Shown here: positions 6,020-57,307 of the stretch, piece by piece | Layout: each line of letters starts with the position of its first letter | How positions within the stretch are numbered: the stretch's first letter is position 1 | Origin: Flavobacterium johnsoniae | GTDB lineage: Bacteria; Bacteroidota; Bacteroidia; Flavobacteriales; Flavobacteriaceae | Length of the DNA stretch: 64,000 nucleotides | Direction of reading: 5' to 3' | NCBI RefSeq assembly: GCF_030388325.1 | Contig: NZ_CP103794.1 | Location: forward strand, 1,054,001-1,118,000 | Notes under the pieces: generated by a model | The model's input: only the letters and a program-made list of their open reading frames with translations | Told to the model about the DNA's origin: nothing | Databases searched by the model: none | Program-made: the position numbers and the translations under genes

Positions 6020-6090
6020 GGCGTCGTGGCCGAGCGGCTAGGCTGGGCTCTGCAAAAGCTCCTACTCCGGTTCGAATCCGGACGATGCCT
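6020..6090 (+). tRNA. tRNA-Cys (GCA anticodon)
   Basis: 71 nt. The acceptor stem GGCGTCG (6020-6026) pairs with CGATGCC (6083-6089), with one G-T pair. The anticodon loop CTGCAAA reads GCA inside a GGGCT/AGCTC stem, and the T-arm is TCCGG TTCGAAT CCGGA. The discriminator base is T (6090), the identity element of tRNA-Cys. CCA is not encoded. It has its own promoter and a strong terminator. Confidence 0.97.
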
Positions 6091-45828: not shown

Positions 45829-46036
45829 AAATAGAGGAAATAAATGGATAGCACTCATTAATATTCCCATTCAAATGGGTGTTATCATATTTTTGTTTTC
45901 TTATCTCGGAACCTGGCTAGACGAAAATCATCCAAGCGAAAAAGTTTACTATAACAAGATCTTGGTTATGGTTGGCGTTGCATTAGCACTATATAATGTT
46001 ATACGTCAGGTAAATGAGATTAATAAAACAAAGTAA
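45809..46036 (+). CDS. AtpI/AtpZ-like F-ATPase assembly protein
   Basis: 75 residues with two membrane helices: WIALINIPIQMGVIIFLFSYLGTWLDE and YNKILVMVGVALALYNVIRQV. The AtpI/AtpZ families help the c-ring assemble or provide a Mg/Ca pathway; the sequence fits either. It starts within the bactofilin gene (20-bp overlap) and precedes the F-ATPase genes by some 570 bp, so its promoter is that of the sprE transcript. Confidence 0.8.
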   Translation: MEKEPNKNRGNKWIALINIPIQMGVIIFLFSYLGTWLDENHPSEKVYYNKILVMVGVALALYNVIRQVNEINKTK

Positions 46037-46093
46037 ATAAAGTTTAAAAACAGCTTTAAATAATATCGCATCTTTGCAAAAAAAATATTCAAG

Positions 46094-46486
46094 ATGTTTT
46101 TAAAGAAATATAAACTTGTTTTTCATTTAATTATTCTCGCCTTTGCTTCCTATATAATACATAAAGGAGTTTTCTTCATTTTTAAAATTAACGGCCAAAA
46201 CTTTTTCTACAGTTTAGAAGTCTTGTATCTTATTTTTCTATTTTTTTCTACCTTATTATTAATACTAACATTAAAATTCCAAAAGGATAAATTTGATAGT
46301 ATTGGAATGTTCTTTATGTTGGGAACTTTTGTTCAAATGTTTATTTACTACGGATTTTTACGACCAATTTTATCAAACAACATTTCTCACGGCTCTGTTG
46401 AAAAAACTAATTTTTTTATAACATTTCTTCTGTTTTTGTTATTTCAGACGCTTTTAACTGCCCGATTATTAAATGAAAAGCGTTAA
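46094..46486 (+). CDS. Small polytopic membrane protein upstream of atpB
   Basis: 130 residues with four hydrophobic segments (about 9-28, 37-60, 70-90 and 105-125). It resembles a Flavobacteriia family that I know only as DUF6168, found beside F-ATPase genes. Its place between the AtpI-like gene and atpB suggests, by analogy with AtpI, a part in ATP synthase assembly; nothing in the sequence proves it. It ends before the atpB promoter. Confidence 0.6.
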   Translation: MFLKKYKLVFHLIILAFASYIIHKGVFFIFKINGQNFFYSLEVLYLIFLFFSTLLLILTLKFQKDKFDSIGMFFMLGTFVQMFIYYGFLRPILSNNISHGSVEKTNFFITFLLFLLFQTLLTARLLNEKR

Positions 46487-46533
46487 AATAACAATTCTTT
46501 AAAACAAGGTTTAAAAATAATTTTTCATATCCT

Positions 46534-46562
46534 TTTGAATATTAATAAAAAATGTACCTTTG
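46534..46562 (+). promoter_or_regulatory. Promoter of the F-ATPase operon
   Basis: TTTG (46534-46537), a 17-nt gap, TACCTTTG (46555-46562), matching the Bacteroidota consensus closely. Start of transcription near 46568, giving a leader of about 37 nt before atpB. Confidence 0.8.
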
Positions 46563-46604
46563 CACCAAATTTTAGAAACGTAAAAAATAAGATTTTCCAC
46601 AGAT

Positions 46605-47756
46605 ATGGTGATTTCAAACAAACCACTCAGATTTATTCTTGCAGCTTTAGTAGCTTGTCTTCCACTAATGAGTTTTTCAAATACTGAAAAAGACTCTACG
46701 CATGTTCAAACTGAAGTAGCCCATGAAGGTGCTGCAGAAGGACATCATGCAGAGCCAACAGATGTTAAATCTAAGATTAAAGCATTTATTGGTCATCACG
46801 TTTTAGACTCTCATGATTTTACATTAACGCAAGATGATGAGACAGGTAAATATTATGGTTTCCCATTACCAGTAATTCTTTGGGATAATGGTTTACACAT
46901 TTTTTCTTCTTCTAAATTTCACCACGGACACGAAGTAGCTGAGTCAAATGGAAATTTTTATGTGATTAATCATCACGATGGAAAAATCTACAGAACAGAT
47001 GCTAAGGGTACAATTACTGAAGATGAAAAAACAGGTCACCCAACAAATGTTCGTCCGTTAGACTTCTCAATTACAAAAACGGTACTTTCTATTATGGTTG
47101 CCGCTTTATTAATGTTTTGGTTATTTACAAGTTTAGCAAAATCATATGCTAAAAACGGAGGAATTGCTTCTGGAGTTGGAAGAATTTTCGAACCTTTAGT
47201 ACTTTTTATTCGTGACGATGTTGCGATTCCAAACATTGGTGAAAAACATTATAAGAAATACATGAGTTATTTATTAACTATATTTTTCTTTGTATTGTTT
47301 TTAAATATTTTCGGACTAACTCCACTAGGGATTAATGCTACAGGAAACTTTACAATTACATTCTCTTTAGCAATCCTTACATTCTTAATCACAAACATTT
47401 CAGCAAATAAAAATTACTGGGGTCACATTTTCTGGATGCCAGGAGTACCAAAACCAATGAGAATTATTTTGGCACCAATTGAATTGTTAGGAGTTTTCAT
47501 TAAGCCATTTTCATTAATGATTCGTTTGTACGCAAATATCTTTGCGGGTCACATCGTATTAATGAGTATCATTGGATTGATGTTTATCTTTAAAAGCTGG
47601 ATTGGAAGTACATTATCTTTCGGATTATCATTTGTACTTTCTATACTAGAAATTCTAGTAGCATTTTTACAAGCCTATATTTTTACAATGCTGTCTGCAC
47701 TTTATTTTGGTTCAGCAGTAGAAGAGCACCACCACGAAGAGGAGGGGCACCACTAA
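46605..47756 (+). CDS. atpB: F0F1 ATP synthase subunit a
   Basis: 383 residues, far longer than the usual 250 or so because of a 150-residue N-terminal extension that starts with a signal-peptide-like helix (about 8-27). Subunit a forms the proton half-channels beside the c-ring. Core membrane segments start at about 155; the conserved Arg lies in IRLYANIFAGHIVLM (about 306-320), preceded by KPMRIILAPIELLGVFIKPFSLMI. The C-terminus ends in a His/Glu-rich tail, EEHHHEEEGHH. First gene of the operon. Confidence 0.96.
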   Translation: MVISNKPLRFILAALVACLPLMSFSNTEKDSTHVQTEVAHEGAAEGHHAEPTDVKSKIKAFIGHHVLDSHDFTLTQDDETGKYYGFPLPVILWDNGLHIFSSSKFHHGHEVAESNGNFYVINHHDGKIYRTDAKGTITEDEKTGHPTNVRPLDFSITKTVLSIMVAALLMFWLFTSLAKSYAKNGGIASGVGRIFEPLVLFIRDDVAIPNIGEKHYKKYMSYLLTIFFFVLFLNIFGLTPLGINATGNFTITFSLAILTFLITNISANKNYWGHIFWMPGVPKPMRIILAPIELLGVFIKPFSLMIRLYANIFAGHIVLMSIIGLMFIFKSWIGSTLSFGLSFVLSILEILVAFLQAYIFTMLSALYFGSAVEEHHHEEEGHH

Positions 47757-47858
47757 AAATTAGATTTCAGAGTTTAGATTTCAGATTTATTTCAATCTAA
47801 AATCTACATTCGAAAATCTAAAATCAAATTGAATGTTTAATTTTTAATATATACAAAT

Positions 47859-48050
47859 ATGAACGGTTTAAATTTCGTAGGAGCTGGATTAATCGTAATC
47901 GGAGCTGCATTAGGTATCGGTAGAATTGGTGGTTCAGCAATGGACGCTATCGCTCGTCAACCAGAAGCTTCAGGAAAAATCCAAACAGCTATGCTTATCG
48001 CTGCTGCACTTATTGAAGGTATTGGTTTCGCTGCATTATTCGCTGCTTAA
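47859..48050 (+). CDS. atpE: F0F1 ATP synthase subunit c
   Basis: 63 residues, two helices around a polar loop: FVGAGLIVIGAALGIGRIGGSAMDAIARQPEASGKIQTAMLIAAALIEGIGFAALF. The rotor carboxylate is the Glu in ALIEG; the RQPE loop binds the central stalk. A glycine-rich first helix fits a normal c-ring. It is separated from atpF by a strong hairpin (48062-48100). Confidence 0.97.
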   Translation: MNGLNFVGAGLIVIGAALGIGRIGGSAMDAIARQPEASGKIQTAMLIAAALIEGIGFAALFAA

Positions 48051-48061
48051 TTAAAACACAA

Positions 48062-48100
48062 AAAACAATAGTTGCAACGGTTGGTTGTAACTATTGTTTT
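48062..48100 (+). promoter_or_regulatory. Strong hairpin between atpE and atpF
   Basis: AAAACAATAGTTGCAA pairs with TTGTAACTATTGTTTT (16 bp with one G-T pair) over a 7-nt loop. A-rich sequence, not a T-run, follows, so it may be a partial terminator, an RNA stabiliser, or both. Confidence 0.7.
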
Positions 48101-48177
48101 AAAAATAAAACATTAAAAATAAAATTGCTCTTCAAGACAATTTAAAAGATATAATTTAAAATTTATAATTCTATATA

Positions 48178-48678
48178 ATGGAAAAGTTAATAAATCAGTT
48201 CGAGTTCGGTTTGTTCTTTTGGCAAGTATTAATATTTGTTGGATTAATTTTCTTGTTGAAAAAATTTGCATGGAAACCAATTCTTGATGCAGTAAATGAT
48301 AGAGAGCAAGGAATTAAAGATGCGTTACTTTCTGCAGAAAATGCAAGACAAGAAATGCAAAATTTACAAGCTGATAACCAAAGAATTTTGAATGAAGCTC
48401 GTGCAGAACGTGACGCTATGTTAAAAGAAGCTCGCGAAATGAAAGAGAAAATGATTGCTGATTCTAAAAATGAAGCTCAAGCTCAAGGTCAAAAAATGAT
48501 CGAACAAGCTAAAGCGGCTATCGAAAGCGAAAAAAACGCTGCTATGGCAGAATTGAAATCTCAAGTTTCAACTTTATCATTAAGCATTGCTGAAAAATTA
48601 TTGAAAGAAGAATTATCTAACAAAGAATCTCAAACTAAATTAGTTGAGAAAATGTTAGGTGACGTAAAGTTAAACTAA
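48178..48678 (+). CDS. atpF: F0F1 ATP synthase subunit b
   Basis: 166 residues. One N-terminal membrane helix (about 8-27, FGLFFWQVLIFVGLIFLLKKFAW) and a long charged helix forming the outer stalk dimer, with LSAENARQEMQNLQADNQRILNEARAERDAMLKEAREMK. Standard b subunit ending in the SIAEKLLKEELSNKESQ segment that meets delta. It overlaps nothing and is 5 bp from atpH. Confidence 0.95.
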   Translation: MEKLINQFEFGLFFWQVLIFVGLIFLLKKFAWKPILDAVNDREQGIKDALLSAENARQEMQNLQADNQRILNEARAERDAMLKEAREMKEKMIADSKNEAQAQGQKMIEQAKAAIESEKNAAMAELKSQVSTLSLSIAEKLLKEELSNKESQTKLVEKMLGDVKLN

Positions 48679-48682
48679 GACT

Positions 48683-49216
48683 ATGGCAAGTACAAGAGCA
48701 GCAATTCGTTATGCAAAAGCAATTTTGGACTTAGCAAACTCTAAAGGTGTTGCCGAAGCTGTAAATAACGATATGAAATCAATTGCAAATGCAATTGAAA
48801 CTAATGTAGAATTGAGTACGTTTATTGAAAACCCAACAACAACTGTTGAAGTTAAACAAAGTGCTCTTTTAGAAGTTTTCTCAAATGTAAATGGTGTAAC
48901 TAAAGGGTTATTTCAATTATTATTCGAAAACAAAAGATTTGAAATTTTAAATGCAATTGCTGTTGAATATAGTAAAGTATATGATGAAAGCAATGGTGTT
49001 GAAGTTGCAAAAGTGACAACTGCAATTCCTATGGATGCAGAATTAGAGGCTAAAGTTTTGGCAAAAATTGCGACTTTATCTGATAAAAAAATTACAATTG
49101 AAAATATAGTAGATCCAGCTATTATCGGTGGATTTATTTTAAGAATAGGTGACAAGCAATACAATGCTTCTGTTGCAAACAGATTACAAGTATTAAAAAG
49201 AGAGTTAAGTAATTAG
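48683..49216 (+). CDS. atpH: F0F1 ATP synthase subunit delta
   Basis: 177 residues. The N-terminal helical bundle (RAAIRYAKAILDLANSKG) binds the top of the alpha subunit; the C-terminal part, with EVAKVTTAIPMDAELEAKVLAKIATLSDKKITIENIVDPAIIGGFILRIGD, contacts subunit b. Normal length. It follows atpF by 4 bp and precedes atpA by 38 bp. Confidence 0.95.
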   Translation: MASTRAAIRYAKAILDLANSKGVAEAVNNDMKSIANAIETNVELSTFIENPTTTVEVKQSALLEVFSNVNGVTKGLFQLLFENKRFEILNAIAVEYSKVYDESNGVEVAKVTTAIPMDAELEAKVLAKIATLSDKKITIENIVDPAIIGGFILRIGDKQYNASVANRLQVLKRELSN

Positions 49217-49254
49217 TTTTTATAACACAAAAAGTGTCTAAATTATAAATTAAG

Positions 49255-50832
49255 ATGGCGGAAATCAAACCTGCTGAAATTTCAGCAATATTAAGAAAGC
49301 AAGTAGAAGGTTTTGAATCTGGTGCTACGCTAGAGGAAGTAGGAACAGTACTTCAAGTTGGAGACGGTATTGCTCGTGTTTACGGGCTATCTAATGTACA
49401 ATATGGAGAGTTAGTAGAATTTGATAACGGTATGGAAGGTATCGTATTGAATCTTGAAGAGGATAATGTTGGGGTTGTACTTTTAGGGCCATCAACTGGA
49501 CTTAAAGAAGGATCTACTGCAAAAAGAACTCAACGTATTGCTTCTCTTAAAGTAGGTGAGCAAATGGTAGGACGTGTTGTTAACACGCTTGGTTTTCCAA
49601 TTGATGGAAAAGGACCAATCGGTGGAGACTTATACGAAATGCCTTTGGAAAGAAAAGCACCTGGTGTTATCTTCCGTCAGCCAGTAACTGAACCATTACA
49701 AACAGGAGTAAAAGCAGTTGATGCTATGATCCCAGTTGGTCGTGGACAGCGTGAGCTTGTAATTGGTGACCGTCAAACAGGTAAATCAACTGTTTGTATT
49801 GATACAATCTTAAATCAAAAAGAATTTTACGATGCAGGAAAACCTGTATTCTGTATATATGTTGCAATTGGACAAAAAGCTTCAACTGTAGCAGGAATCG
49901 CTAAAATGTTAGAAGAAAAAGGAGCAATGGCTTATACAGTTATCGTTGCTGCTAATGCTTCTGATCCAGCTCCAATGCAAGTTTATGCTCCATTCGCTGG
50001 TGCTGCAATTGGAGAGTACTTTAGAGATTCAGGTCGTCCTGCACTTATTGTTTATGATGATTTATCTAAACAAGCTGTTGCTTACCGTGAGGTTTCTCTT
50101 TTATTAAGAAGACCACCGGGACGTGAGGCTTACCCTGGAGACGTTTTCTACTTACACTCTCGTTTATTAGAGCGTGCTTGTAAAGTAATCGCTGATGATG
50201 GTATCGCTAAAAACATGAACGATTTACCAGATTCTATCAAATCTATCGTAAAAGGTGGTGGTTCATTAACTGCTTTACCAATTATCGAAACTCAAGCTGG
50301 TGACGTTTCTGCATATATCCCAACAAACGTAATTTCTATTACAGATGGTCAGATTTTCCTTGATGGAGATTTGTTCAACTCTGGGGTTCGTCCTGCAATT
50401 AACGTAGGTATCTCTGTATCTCGTGTTGGAGGTAATGCTCAAATTAAATCTATGAAGAAAGTTTCTGGAACTTTAAAATTAGACCAAGCTCAATTCCGTG
50501 AATTAGAAGCTTTTGCTAAATTTGGTTCTGACTTAGATTCTGTTACTTTAAACGTAATTGAAAAAGGAAAAAGAAACGTTGAGATCTTAAAACAAGGTTT
50601 AAATGATCCTTATACAGTTGAAAACCAAGTAGCTATTATCTACGCTGGTTCTAAAAACTTATTAAGAAACGTTCCTGTAGAAAAAGTAAAAGAATTTGAA
50701 GCTGATTTCTTAGCTTACTTAAACAGTAAACATAAAGATACGCTTAACGCGTTGAAAGCTGGTAAATTAGATGACAGCATTACAGATGTTATCGAAAAAG
50801 CAGCAAAAGAAATCTCAGCAAAATATAACTAA
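49255..50832 (+). CDS. atpA: F0F1 ATP synthase subunit alpha
   Basis: 525 residues. Non-catalytic nucleotide-binding subunit of F1. The P-loop GDRQTGKST is at 171-179; [62 protein letters not shown] and ITDGQIFL are as in all alpha subunits. Codon use near the start and length are normal. Beta and epsilon genes (atpD, atpC) are absent from this operon, as is usual in Bacteroidota. A hairpin lies between this gene and atpG. Confidence 0.98.
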
Positions 50833-50844
50833 TTTTAGTTGACG

Positions 50845-50884
50845 GTTGTTGGTTGATTGTTTTTAGTAACTATCAACCAACAAC
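50845..50884 (+). promoter_or_regulatory. Hairpin between atpA and atpG
   Basis: A 13-bp perfect stem GTTGTTGGTTGAT / ATCAACCAACAAC with a 14-nt loop, no T-run. The sequence is made of GTTG/CAAC words, unlike the hairpin after atpE. Confidence 0.7.
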
Positions 50885-50905
50885 TAACAACCAATAACTA
50901 TTTAC

Positions 50906-51766
50906 ATGGCAAATTTAAAGGAAATCCGTAATAGAATTACTTCCGTTTCATCGACGATGCAGATTACATCGGCTATGAAAATGGTTTCTGCTGCAAAGCT
51001 TAAGAAAGCACAAGATGCAATCACTGCAATGCGTCCTTATGCCGAGAAATTAACGGAGTTATTGCAAGATCTTTCTGCTACACTTGAAGGTGAAGTTGGA
51101 GGAGATTACACTACACAACGTGAAGTAAAAAAAGTATTGTTAGTAGCGATAACTTCAAACAGAGGTTTATGCGGTGCTTTCAATTCAAATATTATTAAAG
51201 AGATTAAAAACCGTACTGAATTTTACGCAGGAAAGCAAGTTGATGTTTTTGCTATTGGTAAAAAAGGAAATGATGCTTTAAGCAAAACTCATAAAGTTCA
51301 CGGTCATCATAATGCAATTTTTGATCATTTAACTTTTGAAAATGTTGCTGGAATTGCAGATAATTTGACTGAGAAATTTTTATCTGGAGATTATGATAGA
51401 ATTGAGTTGGTTTACAATCAATTTAAAAATGCAGCAACTCAAATTGTTCAAGTAGAGCAATTTTTACCGTTAGCTCCTATCAATTCTGACAAAAATGTTT
51501 CTGCTGGAGATTATATTTTTGAACCCTCTAAAGAAGAAATTGTTTTGACTTTAATTCCTAAGTCTTTAAAAACACAATTATATAAAGGTATCCGCGATTC
51601 ATTTGCTTCTGAGCACGGAGCTCGTATGACTGCTATGCACAAAGCAACAGATAATGCTACTGAATTAAGAAACCAATTAAAATTAACTTATAACAAAGCT
51701 CGTCAAGCTGCGATTACAAGTGAGATTTTGGAAATTGTTGGTGGAGCAGAAGCTTTAAATGGATAA
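50906..51766 (+). CDS. atpG: F0F1 ATP synthase subunit gamma
   Basis: 286 residues. Central rotor: N-terminal helix ANLKEIRNRITSVSSTMQITSAMKMVSAAKLKKAQDA and the C-terminal helix ASEHGARMTAMHKATDNATELRNQLKLTYNKARQAAITSEILEIVGGAEAL, the coiled-coil pair of the shaft. SNRGLCGAFNSNI is conserved. Full length. Last gene of the operon, with a strong terminator after the stop. Confidence 0.96.
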   Translation: MANLKEIRNRITSVSSTMQITSAMKMVSAAKLKKAQDAITAMRPYAEKLTELLQDLSATLEGEVGGDYTTQREVKKVLLVAITSNRGLCGAFNSNIIKEIKNRTEFYAGKQVDVFAIGKKGNDALSKTHKVHGHHNAIFDHLTFENVAGIADNLTEKFLSGDYDRIELVYNQFKNAATQIVQVEQFLPLAPINSDKNVSAGDYIFEPSKEEIVLTLIPKSLKTQLYKGIRDSFASEHGARMTAMHKATDNATELRNQLKLTYNKARQAAITSEILEIVGGAEALNG

Positions 51767-51788
51767 TCAATTCCATTAGATATAAAAT

Positions 51789-51814
51789 AAAAAGCCAGCA
51801 TTTGCTGGCTTTTT
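51789..51814 (+). terminator. Terminator of the F-ATPase operon
   Basis: AAAAAGCCAGC / GCTGGCTTTTT with a 4-nt loop and T-rich tail, 22 bp after the atpG stop. Confidence 0.92.
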
Positions 51815-51845
51815 ATTTATTGGAAGTTTTCTTTTTTAAAAATAA

Positions 51846-51906
51846 TTTTATAAAATGGTGATTCTCAAATTATTCAAAAGTTGAGAATCACTACCATTTT
51901 ATAAAA
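51846..51906. repeat. Long inverted repeat after the atp terminator
   Basis: 23 nt on the left (TTTTATAAAATGG and TGATTCTCAA) pair with the right arm, which has 3 extra bases between the two blocks, over a 12-nt loop. Non-coding; either a second terminator or a small palindromic element. Confidence 0.75.
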
Positions 51907-51925
51907 ATAGACAGATAACTCTGTG

Positions 51926-52193
51926 TGCTTTGTCTTTCATGGGAACAAACTAGCTTTATTAATCCCAATGCTCTGTTTTTTTAAGGGTTACATTTCAGCA
52001 GAATCAATCCCTTTTGCTTTGTCTTTTATGGGAACAAACAAGCTTTATTAGTCCCAGTGCTCTGTTTTTATTAGGGTTACAATACAGCTGAATCAATCCC
52101 TTATGCTTTGTCTTTTATGGGAACAAACAAGCTTTATCAGTCCCAGTGCTTCCTTTTTTATAAGGGTTGTATTTAGCTTTCTCAATCCCTGTG
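51926..52193. repeat. Array of six alternating 43/46-nt hairpin repeats (89-bp tandem)
   Basis: Three tandem copies with an 89-bp period start at 51926, 52015 and 52104. Each splits into an A unit of 43 nt (TGCTTTGTCTTTTATGGGAA.. ending TCCCAG) and a B unit of 46-47 nt (TGCTCTGTTTTTATTAGGG.. ending ATCCCTTA). A and B align with each other, so there are six related units: 51926, 51969, 52015, 52058, 52104, 52147. In each, GGGA or AGGG near the middle can pair with TCCC or CCCT about 18-20 nt later. 89 is not a multiple of 3 and no frame is open. No known RNA family is recognised. Confidence 0.9.
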
Positions 52194-52335
52194 AAACAAA
52201 TTTAGGAAAAGACTGTCTAAAAAAAGTTACATAATTTTCATGTCTAATTTATATATTTCACATGTCTTTGATTTTTAATTATATAACTATTAACTAAGAA
52301 ATTAATTATTTTTGATTATATTAAAGCAAACTGTA

Positions 52336-52785
52336 ATGAATCACCAACTTATAAAAGAACTTACTACCATTCCTGAAATGTTAGCTCAAATAGGTACAAT
52401 TAGATTTCTATATCCAAATATAACTTTAGAAAAATATGAATCTTTTCTTTTGGAAATGCTTCCACACAACTATACTCAAATTGCTGTTTTTGAAAATGAT
52501 ATTTGTGTAGGACTAACAGGTTGCTGGTCTGCAACAAAATTATGGACGGGAAGATATTTAGAAATAGATAATTTTGTTGTAAATCCAGATCACCGTTCTA
52601 AAGGAATTGGAAAATTGCTTACTGATTATATAGAGAAAAAAGCAATGGAATTAAATTGCAGCAGTATTGTTTTAGATGCTTTCACCGGAAATTTTGGAGC
52701 GCATAGATTTTACTACAATCAAGGTTACGCGCCAAGAGGGTTTCATTTTGTAAAAATTTTGGACGAAAAGAAAATGACTGTTTAA
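52336..52785 (+). CDS. GNAT-family N-acetyltransferase
   Basis: 149 residues from the ATG at 52336; a longer TTG-started frame exists. The acetyl-CoA-binding motif A is clear: LEIDNFVVNPDHRSKGIGKLLTDYIEKKA, with the R-x-x-GIG loop, followed by CSSIVLDAFTGNFGAHRFYYNQGYAPRGFHF, the usual motif-B ending. Substrate unknown. It stands alone after the hairpin array. Confidence 0.88.
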   Translation: MNHQLIKELTTIPEMLAQIGTIRFLYPNITLEKYESFLLEMLPHNYTQIAVFENDICVGLTGCWSATKLWTGRYLEIDNFVVNPDHRSKGIGKLLTDYIEKKAMELNCSSIVLDAFTGNFGAHRFYYNQGYAPRGFHFVKILDEKKMTV

Positions 52786-52880
52786 AAACAAACAGAACTT
52801 TATTTTATTGCTTCAACAAAAACATCATTAAACAAAAGAAATGGTTATTTTTGTCTTACAAACACTATTACAATTATATT

Positions 52881-54341
52881 TTGGGATTATATAAAAATCT
52901 ATTTAAGCAAACAGCAATTTACGGTCTGGCTACAGTTTTACCAAGAATGCTAAGTTTTTTATTAGTGAGATTATATACAGGAATTTTACCAACTGCAGAG
53001 TATGGAGAAGTTTCAATTGTATTATCTTGGATGGTTTTCTTTAACGTAGTTCTTTCTTACGGAATGGAAACGGCTTTTTTTAGATTTTATAGTGCCGAAG
53101 ATGATAAGAAAAATGTAATTGCAACTTCTACAATTTCAATATTTTGGACTTCAATTATCTTCCTTTTTGTTGCTTTAATTTTTAGGAATACGTTAGCCAA
53201 TCTTGCAGAGGTAGATGTTCAATATATTACGTATACCGTTTGGATTTTGGTATTAGATGCATTGGTTTTAATTCCGTTTTCTAAATTAAGAGCCAATCAA
53301 AGACCAATGGTTTATGCGGCAATTAAGATTGGAAATGTCGTTATTAATCTTCTACTTAATATCTTTTTCTTAATGTATTTGCCAACGTTGGCGGCAGAAA
53401 ATCCAGGTTCTGTTTGGGACAATTTATATGTAGAAAACTTTCAAATCGCTTATATTTTCATTGCGAATCTTCTAGCAAGTTTGGCAACATTTATAGTTCT
53501 TTCTCCAAATTATCTTTCGCTTGGACGAAAATTCGATCCAGAACTTTGGAGAAGAATGATGAAATATGGTCTCCCAATTTTGGTTGCCGGATTAGCTTTT
53601 GCCGTAAACGAACATTTCGATAAAATCTTATTAGGTTATTTACTTCCAGAAAATCTAGCAAAATCTGAGGTTGGAGCTTATTCAGCTTGTTACAAATTAG
53701 GATTGTTTATGGTTCTTTTTGCAACAGCTTTCAGATTAGGAATTGAACCTTTCTTTTTCAGCCATGCAAAAAATGAAAATGCTCCGCAGACTTATGCAGT
53801 AATTACAAAATACTTTGTGATATTGGGATCTCTAATTTTATTAGGCGTGATTGTTTTTGCGGATGTTCTAAAATACCTTTTATTAGACAATAAATCGTAT
53901 TGGGAAGCAATGAAAGTTGTGCCACTAATCATTTTGGCGAATTTCTTTCTTGGAATTTATAACAACTTATCGGTTTGGTATAAACTAACCGACAAAACAA
54001 AAATTGGAGCTTACATTTCTATAGTTGGTGCAATTGTAACTTTGGTTCTAAATTATCTTTTAATTCCGAAATACAGTTATTATGGTTCTGCAATTGCAAC
54101 CATTTCTGCTTACGGAAGTATGATGCTTATTTCTTATGTTTTAGGAAATAAATATTATCCAATTCCTTATGACATGAATAAAATTGGCGCTTATTTAGGA
54201 GTTTCTATATTATTTTCGATTATCTCGTTTTACGGATTTAGAGAAAAATATTATGTTGGAATTCCGCTTCTTTTAGCCTTTATGTATTTGGTTTATCATT
54301 TCGAAAAAGATACTATAAAAGGAATAATGAAAAGAAAATAA
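52881..54341 (+). CDS. Oligosaccharide flippase / MATE-like polysaccharide exporter
   Basis: 486 residues from the TTG at 52881 (first residues MGLYKNLFKQTAIYGLATVLPRMLS); a TTG ten codons earlier (52851) is possible but lies within a TATTTTTG box (52846-52853) that looks like the promoter. About fourteen membrane segments of the MOP superfamily. It begins a run with dut, a sugar-nucleotidyltransferase and envelope lipoproteins, so it may export a cell-wall or lipid-linked glycan. It differs from the Wzx at 20822. Confidence 0.85.
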   Translation: MGLYKNLFKQTAIYGLATVLPRMLSFLLVRLYTGILPTAEYGEVSIVLSWMVFFNVVLSYGMETAFFRFYSAEDDKKNVIATSTISIFWTSIIFLFVALIFRNTLANLAEVDVQYITYTVWILVLDALVLIPFSKLRANQRPMVYAAIKIGNVVINLLLNIFFLMYLPTLAAENPGSVWDNLYVENFQIAYIFIANLLASLATFIVLSPNYLSLGRKFDPELWRRMMKYGLPILVAGLAFAVNEHFDKILLGYLLPENLAKSEVGAYSACYKLGLFMVLFATAFRLGIEPFFFSHAKNENAPQTYAVITKYFVILGSLILLGVIVFADVLKYLLLDNKSYWEAMKVVPLIILANFFLGIYNNLSVWYKLTDKTKIGAYISIVGAIVTLVLNYLLIPKYSYYGSAIATISAYGSMMLISYVLGNKYYPIPYDMNKIGAYLGVSILFSIISFYGFREKYYVGIPLLLAFMYLVYHFEKDTIKGIMKRK

Positions 54342-54370
54342 GACACTTATAAAAAATATTTATTTAAAAA

Positions 54371-54805
54371 ATGAAAATACAAATAATCAATAAATCTCAG
54401 CACGATTTACCAAACTACGAAACAATTGCTTCTGCAGGAATGGATTTACGTGCCAATATTTCTGACGCAATTACGCTAAAACCTTTAGAAAGAGCTATCG
54501 TAAAAACAGGACTTTTTATCGAATTACCAATTGGTTACGAAGCGCAAGTAAGGCCAAGAAGTGGTCTAGCAGCAAAAAAAGGTGTAACCGTTTTAAATTC
54601 GCCTGGAACTATTGATGCAGATTACAGAGGAGAAATTGGTGTAATTTTAGTAAATTTATCTAATGACGATTTTGTAATTGAAAATGGAGAAAGAATTGCA
54701 CAGCTGATTATTGCAAAACACGAAAGAGCAGAATGGATCGAAGTTGAAACACTTTCTGAAACATCAAGAGGTGAAGGAGGATTCGGAAGCACTGGAGTAA
54801 AATAA
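54371..54805 (+). CDS. dut: dUTP diphosphatase
   Basis: 144 residues. Trimeric dUTPase that keeps uracil out of DNA and makes dUMP for thymidylate synthesis. The five motifs are visible: ASAGMDLRA (I), [19 protein letters not shown] (II), [17 protein letters not shown] (III), [10 protein letters not shown] (IV) and [11 protein letters not shown] (V). Full length. It lies 29 bp after the flippase gene. Confidence 0.97.
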
Positions 54806-54889
54806 ATTTCTGTAATAAACAGAACAAAAAAAAGAAAGACCAAACCCCTTGAAGATTTTTTCAAATCTTCTTATAAAATCAAATAAAGA

Positions 54890-55906
54890 ATGAAAATAAT
54901 TGTGCCAATGGCAGGCCGTGGATCAAGATTAAGGCCTCATACATTAACTGTTCCAAAACCATTAATTCCTGTTGCAGGTAAATCTATTGTACATCGTTTA
55001 GTTGAAGATATTGCCAAAATATTAAAAGAACCAATTGAAGAAGTGGCTTTTATTTTAGGAGACGAAGCTTTTTTTGGAGATGATGTTGTAAATAGTTTAG
55101 AAGATTTGGCTAAAGGATTAGGAGCAAAAGCTGCTATATACCGTCAGGATCAACCTTTGGGAACGGGTCACGCAATTATGTGTGCAAAAGATTCTCTTTC
55201 TGGACCAGCGGTAATTGCTTATGCAGATACTTTAATTAGAGCAGATTTTGAATTAGATCCAGAAGCAGATGCTGTAATTTGGGTAAAGCAAGTTGAACAG
55301 CCAGAAGCATTTGGTGTTGTAAAACTAAATCAAAATAATGAAATTATTGAGTTGGTTGAAAAACCAAAAGAATTTGTTAGTGACTTAGCGGTTATCGGAA
55401 TTTATTATTTTAAAGAAGTTGGAGTTTTAAGAAATGAACTTCAAAATGTTTTGGATAATAACATTCAAAATGGTGGAGAATACCAGATTAATGACGGTAT
55501 CAAAGCGATGATGGCAAACGGAAAAGTTTTCAAAACCGGAAGCGTTGACGAATGGATGGACTGCGGAAACAAAGATGTTACTGTAGAAACAAATACAAGA
55601 ATGCTAGGTTTTCTTCATAACGATGGAGAGCACTTAGTAGATTATGGTGTGAAATTAGAAAATTCAACAATTATTCCTCCTTGTTATATTGGAGAAAATG
55701 TTGTTTTGAAAAATACAACTATTGGTCCAAATGTTTCTTTAGGAAATGGATGTCATGTAACAGATAGCAGGATCAAAAACAGTTTGATTCAGACTTATTC
55801 TCAAATCAAAAATGCTGATTTAGATAACGCAATGATCGGAAATCACGTAAGTTACGACGGTAAATTTACTAGTATTAGTATTGGTGATTATGCTGTTTTA
55901 GAATAA
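54890..55906 (+). CDS. Sugar-phosphate nucleotidyltransferase
   Basis: 338 residues. The nucleotidyl-transfer fold: MKIIVPMAGRGSRLRPHTLTVPKPLIPVAGKSIVHRLV (the G-x-G-x-R-x(n)-PK signature), QPLGTGHAIMCA, YADTLI and EKPKEF. The C-terminus (about 250-338) has left-handed beta-helix repeats (NSTIIPPCYIGENVVLKNTTIGPNVSLGNG), as in glucose-1-phosphate thymidylyl- or uridylyltransferases with acyltransferase-like tails. The sugar is not certain; a TDP- or UDP-sugar for envelope glycans is likely. Confidence 0.9.
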   Translation: MKIIVPMAGRGSRLRPHTLTVPKPLIPVAGKSIVHRLVEDIAKILKEPIEEVAFILGDEAFFGDDVVNSLEDLAKGLGAKAAIYRQDQPLGTGHAIMCAKDSLSGPAVIAYADTLIRADFELDPEADAVIWVKQVEQPEAFGVVKLNQNNEIIELVEKPKEFVSDLAVIGIYYFKEVGVLRNELQNVLDNNIQNGGEYQINDGIKAMMANGKVFKTGSVDEWMDCGNKDVTVETNTRMLGFLHNDGEHLVDYGVKLENSTIIPPCYIGENVVLKNTTIGPNVSLGNGCHVTDSRIKNSLIQTYSQIKNADLDNAMIGNHVSYDGKFTSISIGDYAVLE

Positions 55907-55954
55907 AATAAAAAAGAAGAAAGTTTCGTTTTTGTTTAAAATGTATTTTTCCAA

Positions 55955-57307
55955 ATGATTAGAAAAAGAGTTTTTACAGTTTTGCTTGTTGCTTTTTTTA
56001 GCACATCGTTTTCGGTTTTTGCTCAGACAGAACCCGAAGATATTGCTATGGCAACAGACGAATATCAAGACTCATTTTATGAATCATTAAAACAAAAAGG
56101 AATCGAAAATTACGATAAAGCAATTGTGTCATTGGAAAAATGTATCAAACTAAAACCCAATGACGCAGTCGCTTATTTTGAATTAGGCAAGAATTATCTA
56201 GCGCTTAAACAATATCAAAATGCGCAAGATGCTTTTGAAAAAGCAACACAGCTTGATCCTAAAAATAAATGGTTTTGGCTCGGAATTTACGATGTAAGTT
56301 ATGAGACGAAAAATTATGCTTTGGCGATTGAAATCATTCAAAAAATTATTGTTTTTGATGAAGAATACAAAGATGACTTGATTTCGTTGTACATGATTAC
56401 CAATCAGTATGATAAAGCGCTAACAGCGATAAACGAAATGAATGATAAGTTTGGAAAATCTTCTGATCGTGAAATTTATAAAGCGCAGATTTTATCGCAA
56501 GGAAAATATCAAAATGCAGAAATTGACAATCTGATTCAGCAGATTAAAAAAGATCCAAAAGAAGAATCAAATTATTTGAATCTAATTCTTTTGTATTCGA
56601 AAAATAATGAAAATGAGAAGTCTTTAGAAGTGGCCAAACAATTGGCAAAAGAAATTCCGAATTCAGAATGGGCTCAAGTAAGTTTGTTTAAAACTTATTT
56701 AGATGCAAATCAAGCAGATAAAGCTATAAAATCGATGAATATGATTTTAGCAAGCTCAAAAATTGATTCAAAAATTAAACATAGAACGTTGAATGAATTT
56801 TTGATTTTTGTAAACAAAAATCCACAGTATTCTGCCGATTTAGAAAAAGCAATCTCTTATTTTGATAACGATAAAGAAGTAGATGTTGCAAAAGAAATTG
56901 GAAAATTTTATCATAGCAAAGGTCAGTTCGAAAATGCAATTAAATATTATGAAAAAGATTTAAAAGCACATTCAGATACAGATCTTGAAACGAATATGTT
57001 ATTGTTAGAAGCATATTCTCAGATTAAACAATACGATTTAATGACCAAAAGAGCCATGATGCTGATTGAAGTTTATCCGAGTCAGGCGCAGTTTTATTAT
57101 TATGCTGGTTTGGGAAGCAATCAGACGAAGCAGTTTAAAAATGCGAAAACTGTTTTAGAAATGGGACTTGATTATGTTGTTGATGATGCAAAATTGGAAG
57201 CAAATTTTAATATTCAATTAGGAGAAGCGTATAATGGATTGGGAGATGCCAAGAAAAAAGAGGAATACTTTTTGAAGGCTAATGAATTATTAAAAAAGAA
57301 AAAATAA
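55955..57307 (+). CDS. TPR-repeat secreted protein
   Basis: 450 residues. A signal peptide (VFTVLLVAFFSTSFSVFAQ) is followed by tetratricopeptide repeats across the whole length, for example YFELGKNYLALKQYQNAQDAFEKATQLDPKN and GKFYHSKGQFENAIKYYEKDL. It would serve as a periplasmic protein scaffold. It lies 11 bp before the DUF4292 lipoprotein gene, and the pair with EnvC suggests an envelope-biogenesis operon. No partner can be named. Confidence 0.85.
   Translation: MIRKRVFTVLLVAFFSTSFSVFAQTEPEDIAMATDEYQDSFYESLKQKGIENYDKAIVSLEKCIKLKPNDAVAYFELGKNYLALKQYQNAQDAFEKATQLDPKNKWFWLGIYDVSYETKNYALAIEIIQKIIVFDEEYKDDLISLYMITNQYDKALTAINEMNDKFGKSSDREIYKAQILSQGKYQNAEIDNLIQQIKKDPKEESNYLNLILLYSKNNENEKSLEVAKQLAKEIPNSEWAQVSLFKTYLDANQADKAIKSMNMILASSKIDSKIKHRTLNEFLIFVNKNPQYSADLEKAISYFDNDKEVDVAKEIGKFYHSKGQFENAIKYYEKDLKAHSDTDLETNMLLLEAYSQIKQYDLMTKRAMMLIEVYPSQAQFYYYAGLGSNQTKQFKNAKTVLEMGLDYVVDDAKLEANFNIQLGEAYNGLGDAKKKEEYFLKANELLKKKK

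Follow-up and report, generated by a model that had tools for sequence, protein, structure and literature searches.

A tandem array of alternating hairpin units beside atpG in Flavobacterium johnsoniae and the non-coding RNA gene predicted to contain it

The 64,000-nucleotide stretch of the Flavobacterium johnsoniae chromosome analysed here (the window) contains, between atpG and a GNAT acetyltransferase gene, an array of six hairpin units that in all probability belongs to a non-coding RNA gene (estimated probability about 0.85), and sequence comparison with relatives points to the minus strand as its coding strand and to a gene that related species of the genus preserve with little change. 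Analysis of the locus suggests an RNA of about 355 nt: a sigma-A-type promoter would start the minus-strand transcript at approximately 52192, at the first hairpin; six modules of alternating A and B type would follow, each with an AGCU-type loop and with AGCA at the end of an A-rich linker; and the transcript would end at a long bulged hairpin, at approximately 51835-51840. Through its repeated modules the RNA may take up an RNA-binding protein in several copies and so keep it from mRNAs, in the manner of CsrB and CsrA. Such titration of a putative partner, proposed by analogy, is tentative, with the odds somewhat against it, and we put the account as a whole (gene, modules, promoter, end and titrating mode) at slightly less than even odds. 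The initial annotation of this DNA had listed a tandem small-RNA gene among several options; that option now has the most support, although the gene would lie on the opposite strand and reach beyond the array. The promoter, a small hairpin and the long inverted repeat that forms the end hairpin (51846-51906) had gone undescribed, as had a conserved block (52193-52267).

Organization and folding of the array

The array (51926-52193) consists of six head-to-tail units in strict A-B order, 43 and 46 nt long, as had been claimed from the sequence: Tandem Repeats Finder reports a period of 89 over 51926-52168 (2.7 copies, 90% matches), whose score of 386 is the highest among its 25 rows for the window, and units start at 51926, 51969, 52015, 52058, 52104 and 52147, so that the periods are 43/46/43/46/43 and the last unit is about 47 nt long. 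Numbered along the minus strand by period mapping, nhmmer and a covariance model, the units are a diverged B-type unit 1 at the highest coordinates (52147-52193), the A-type units 2 (52104-52146), 4 (52015-52057) and 6 (51926-51968), and the B-type units 3 (52058-52103) and 5 (51969-52014). On the plus strand the array is preceded by atpG (50906-51766) and, near 51791-51817, by a terminator-like hairpin; the GNAT acetyltransferase gene lies on the far side of the array from atpG. Open reading frames of at least 60 amino acids listed for 46000-57000 leave the array uncovered, in agreement with the earlier statement that it holds no gene, and the units are contiguous, without the unique spacers of a CRISPR, again as stated. 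In minus sense the array is followed by atpG antisense, and no minus-strand frame of at least 60 amino acids was found in 51000-51845. The array is single-copy in the 5.32-Mb chromosome: it gave one BLAST match, and a 44-nt covariance model searched at E up to 10 gave 14 matches, six of them the array and the other eight starting at E = 2.2.

Read in minus sense, each unit is a hairpin with the stem NGGG...CCCN followed by an A-rich linker. An anchored script collected 214 units from the window and its relatives, of which 187 were distinct, 181 could be parsed and 157 were of GGG type; the stem statistics use the 149 of these that had both flanks, the rest being dropped. Among the distinct units, AGCW occurs in the hairpin loop in 173 of 187, and the linker ends in purine-GC, mostly AGCA, in 184 of 187. 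Loop and linker sequences are the most constant parts of the unit, and the RNA carries WGCW twelve times, once per loop and once per linker. By eye, A units have UGGGA/UCCCA stems and B units AGGG/CCCU stems, and CGGG/CCCG and GAGG/CCUC stems are also present. The distance between GGG and CCC within units, read from the sequence, is 20-21 nt, which corrects an earlier loop length of 18-20 nt.

The pair outside GGG/CCC is of Watson-Crick type in 121 of the 149 distinct GGG-type units, compared with 67.7 +/- 5.5 after shuffling, an excess much of which reflects the difference between A and B types and therefore few evolutionary events. The expectation that pairing is kept despite base changes is borne out in the count but draws on few independent changes. 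Wobble pairs in the unit stems (8 versus 5) give no indication of strand, and a single unit is about as stable on one strand as on the other (-5.07 and -4.98). Folding of the longer sequence separates the strands: plus-strand 51895-52210, in the orientation assumed in the initial annotation, is not better than its shuffles (z -1.24; 14 of 100 shuffles fold as well), whereas minus-strand 52193-51835, which includes the long end hairpin, is (z -3.84; 0 of 100). Both RNAalifold and minimum-free-energy folds favour pairing from unit to unit over separate hairpins. Consensus folding of 15 close relatives gave one double change in 91 pairs and is uninformative because the sequences hardly vary. A first unit alignment, in which the A and B stems lay one column off register, was used for the search model only.

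Predicted promoter and terminator

A predicted sigma-A -7 box, TAAATTTG, lies on the minus strand at 52197-52204, just before the first unit. The pattern TAnnTTTG occurs on the minus strand in the 110 nt that precede the array in 25 of 36 cases, compared with 2/36 on the plus strand before the other end and 3/36 and 0/36 on the opposite strand at either end. By array type it is present at 14/14 of type 1 (window-like), 11/12 of type 3 (island) and 0/10 of type 2, types having been assigned after the upstream sequence was viewed and in related genomes. Since the flavobacterial -7 box is placed at -12 to -5 in the promoter description given in PMC9723704, transcription is predicted to start at about 52192, where the array begins on the minus strand. 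Further upstream, a conserved direct-repeat-like block, AAATATATAA...AATTATGTAA (52227-52258, minus strand), a form of which is conserved upstream of type-1 arrays, may be an activator site; the pattern AAATRTATAA-N10-14-AATTATRTAA has one match in the genome (52227-52258) and its control none. With a weak -33 region and this dedicated upstream site, the promoter is probably activator-dependent. As a sequence match, the array would thus have a promoter of its own, as expected of a stand-alone small-RNA gene.

The last unit is followed by two hairpins. The smaller (ACAGA/TCTGT, 51911-51924, minus strand) averages -5.2 kcal/mol over 36 distinct versions versus -1.6 after shuffling; 28 of the versions fall within the lowest 5 of 100 shuffles and eight do not. 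The longer (51846-51906, minus strand), which has a 3-nt one-sided bulge and leads in minus sense into AT-rich sequence containing runs of T, is a likely terminator, as covariation and strand folding suggest. It is present with its bulge in 23 of 24 arrays at atpG loci (the exception is L073). In 32 sequences 97.9% of its cells are paired, compared with 91.9% after shuffling and at most 51.8% after sliding; 37 cells are doubly changed compared with 12.0 in shuffles (0/500), and the covariation score is 0.215 compared with 0.120 (0/500); pairs with a double change (6 versus 4.8 shuffled; 115/500) and further pair types (14 versus 14.3) show no excess. Counted on the structure predicted in minus sense, its variation comprises 44 G-U and 3 A-C cells in that sense. 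Free folding of both strands favours the minus strand for 22 of 26 distinct end hairpins, by a small difference in the closest relatives. A model of the terminal domain (R2) matches the window at 51845-51932 and has matches in 28 of 150 genus genomes; 31 of the 32 matches listed adjoin an array, and the remaining one (G130) is the opposite strand of the same palindrome. The gene thus likely has the terminator-like end of a stand-alone small-RNA gene.

Distribution and conservation

The search of other Flavobacterium genomes that had been suggested does find relatives of the unit: at E up to 0.001 the 44-nt model detects units in 32 of 121 genus genomes, and among the matches listed those of any one genome form a single cluster or clusters next to each other. 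A 481-base query of 299 genus genomes matched 151 at E up to 0.01, many of them weakly, and 60 with a best E below 1e-20. Among 299 genomes of the family, from 236 genera, two had matches at E up to 1e-4 under strict filters, both Flavobacterium (1/236 genera). A pattern scan of genome contigs returned 116 stretches, titled Flavobacterium (101), Flavobacteriaceae bacterium (3), [Flexibacter] sp. ATCC 35103 (1) and other (11, one of them Aquimarina); of the seven of these 11 that were rescored, four gave nothing at E up to 0.05, and the highest score was 26 bits, without a second unit. One viral pattern match scored 27 bits, and no phage or plasmid matched the array. Multi-unit arrays were found only in Flavobacterium in the genomes searched; named holders include F. 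johnsoniae CI04, F. saccharophilum, F. pectinovorum, F. glaciei, F. xanthum and F. fryxellicola.

Iterated nhmmer collected 208 units in the window and 20 relative loci. The arrays of relatives have 1 to 17 detected units and occupy two kinds of site, one behind atpG and the other ahead of double-glycine peptide genes in export islands of bacteriocin-like character. Six units are kept in all 15 aligned close relatives. In 29 of 29 relatives, which were picked by their match to the array region and are thereby biased towards conservation, the array is more identical than the fourfold-degenerate sites of atpG (means 0.955 and 0.735); mean identity is 0.894 for the end hairpin, 0.837 for the promoter block and 0.610 for the spacer beyond.

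Some relatives carry a second, longer atpG-adjacent array (type 2: L061, L062, L063 and L069-L073, with a variant in L064 and L065), which has up to 17 units and, upstream, a conserved motif of its own, AAAAATCACTAAATGTGGGTATTGTGG, and lacks a nearby TAnnTTTG; the motif has two matches in the genome of the window, with 2 and 3 mismatches. A block of genes that look like those for an OmpA-like protein, an ABC transporter and an AAA ATPase lies near the atpG site in two loci (L064:8548-15389, L080:7893-12898), flanked on both sides by arrays in L064.

Rfam (release 15) reports a tRNA gene at 6020-6090 as its sole gathering-level match in the whole window. An E-value scan of 51700-52400 gave nothing at gathering score; the matches in the array region, to mir-471 and others, were all below it and were discarded because they arise from AT-rich palindromes. 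In a scan of four of the six island loci no Rfam match fell at the arrays; a Flavo-1 RNA (RF01705, 53.5 bits) lies outside the array at L078:1889-1964. A literature search at the level of titles and abstract starts returned no description of such an array.

Arrays in peptide-export islands

In six loci (L066-L068 and L077-L079) arrays occur in clusters with small frames encoding double-glycine (GG) leader peptides. The L078 island has Pfam support for a C39-peptidase ABC transporter, HlyD, an AraC-type HTH protein with TPR-like stretches and an S8 protease; Pfam also identifies CAAX (Rce1-like) proteases in the L067 and L079 islands. The peptides themselves have sub-threshold matches only, to Bacteriocin_IIc (L068) and a cerein-type model (L066). 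C39-like ABC transporters elsewhere in the genome of the window are at best 34% identical.

With L076 included, island-type arrays number 12, and in 10 of these a GG-leader frame (one of only 25 amino acids) follows in minus sense, starting roughly 80-160 nt downstream. The other two are followed by a transposase-like frame, which we take to resemble IS30 (first array of L066), and by a secreted-protein-like frame (L076). In L067, taken as F. fryxellicola, the interval from atpG to the GNAT gene, which is where the window has its array, is occupied by the island together with two more genes. The sequence AATTGGCCAATT or a variant follows the last unit in the L066, L067, L068, L077, L078 and L079 islands, and in the same six a palindrome, TTCTCGAGAA, precedes many of the peptide genes. 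A structured 5' domain suspected by eye in the island loci was unsupported when tested.

Proposed mode of action and rival explanations

The exact ends of the RNA, its action in trans and titration are inferred. One promoter and one terminator, a variable number of modules and constant loop and linker motifs would fit a titrating RNA better than a small RNA with a single seed. The islands suggest another function, that of a leader or attenuator that acts in cis on double-glycine peptide genes and whose weaker end hairpin lets some transcription pass, the array in the window being an island remnant or a regulator of a neighbouring gene. The peptide frames after 10 of 12 island arrays and the island at the very site of the window's array in L067 speak for such a leader. 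However, the window array is followed by no GG-leader frame but by atpG antisense behind a strong hairpin, it is too highly conserved for a decaying remnant, the peptide is absent after two island arrays (the first of L066 and that of L076), and by eye a separate peptide promoter may follow the array; we consider this explanation unlikely. Somewhat less likely still is a base-pairing small RNA with repeated seeds, whose loops or linkers would pair with many mRNAs. The constancy of loops and linkers would suit it, and the genome contains 23 copies of the linker complement TGCTYTGTTTTT, two of them in the array, compared with seven of the reversed pattern; yet 20 of the 21 sites outside the array lie inside frames of at least 90 amino acids (simple finder), and the two target-sense sites near starts (L111, L112) fall in signal-peptide-like codons, so that this search of the genome, which covered the linkers, gave no lead.

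The two remaining explanations need no RNA. The initial annotation had offered a protein-binding array, and alternating GGG and CCC about two helical turns (about 22 bp) apart, with palindromic centres and, in the islands, regulated genes nearby, could indeed bind a regulator as DNA. This is improbable, since the flanking pairs differ within one array (TGGG/CCCA, AGGG/CCCT and once CGGG/CCCG), the end hairpin varies by G-U pairs of one strand, for which DNA binding is the poorer account, and the predicted promoter points into the array. Expansion by slippage, also offered there, does occur, as the varying unit number shows (1 to 17 detected), but a neutral slippage repeat leaves unexplained why the array is conserved above synonymous sites in 29/29 relatives and why 15/15 close relatives keep six units, and we regard it as very improbable.

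A broader and more speculative proposal, which we think unlikely in its full extent, also takes in the island arrays: a new modular RNA class of Bacteroidota that acts through valency, in which A and B hairpins with palindromic loops (AAGCUU, CAGCUG) and AGCA linkers would form a binding lattice for a putative RNA-binding protein or for RNA-RNA multimers, and which would have arisen as the leader of double-glycine peptide export islands, been kept as a free trans-acting regulator after gene loss at the atpG site, and had its unit number tuned by slippage. The array stands alone behind atpG in some genomes and heads peptide-export genes in others, in one species at the very same chromosomal site, which would make a transition from leader to free regulator open to testing. 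Few regulatory RNAs of Flavobacterium have been studied so far, and the partner of a strongly conserved, single-copy, multi-module RNA with a dedicated promoter site can be sought with one short synthetic unit.

Comparison with known systems

REP and BIME elements are short palindromic intergenic repeats in clusters. The array differs from these in having one locus per genome among the matches listed, a strictly head-to-tail order and a predicted promoter and terminator, and neither BLAST nor the covariance model found dispersed copies elsewhere in the genome of the window. The nearest likeness is to RNAs of the CsrB/RsmZ type, which have a regulated promoter and a terminator. As generally outlined, CsrB/CsrC and RsmX/Y/Z are likewise single non-coding RNAs with many repeated stem-loops, which bind multiple protein dimers; the RNA proposed here would have six units and two terminal hairpins, although its minimum-free-energy fold pairs the units with each other. 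It differs in sequence and in the A/B alternation of near-identical units; GGA is absent from the unit loops, being confined to the GGGA strand of A-unit stems.

Tandem repeats also make up ToxI, the RNA of type III toxin-antitoxin systems as outlined in PMC8860590, but here atpG antisense rather than a toxin gene directly follows the array, stems and loops are of other kinds, and a long terminal hairpin is included. Among small RNAs of Bacteroidota, FopS of Bacteroides, in the account of PMC11697453, comprises 14 separate genes, each with a single-stranded 5' part and a terminator, a sigma-ABfr-type promoter and the RNA-binding protein RbpB as partner; a sigma-A-type promoter would be shared, whereas the modules here stand in tandem in one gene. 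Rfp18 of F. psychrophilum, whose third stem-loop is described as pairing with protease mRNAs (PMC9723704), is comparable by that description as a conserved structured small RNA of Flavobacterium. We class the predicted RNA as a new family within a general kind that is already known, set apart by its A/B alternation and by its use both in islands and on its own.
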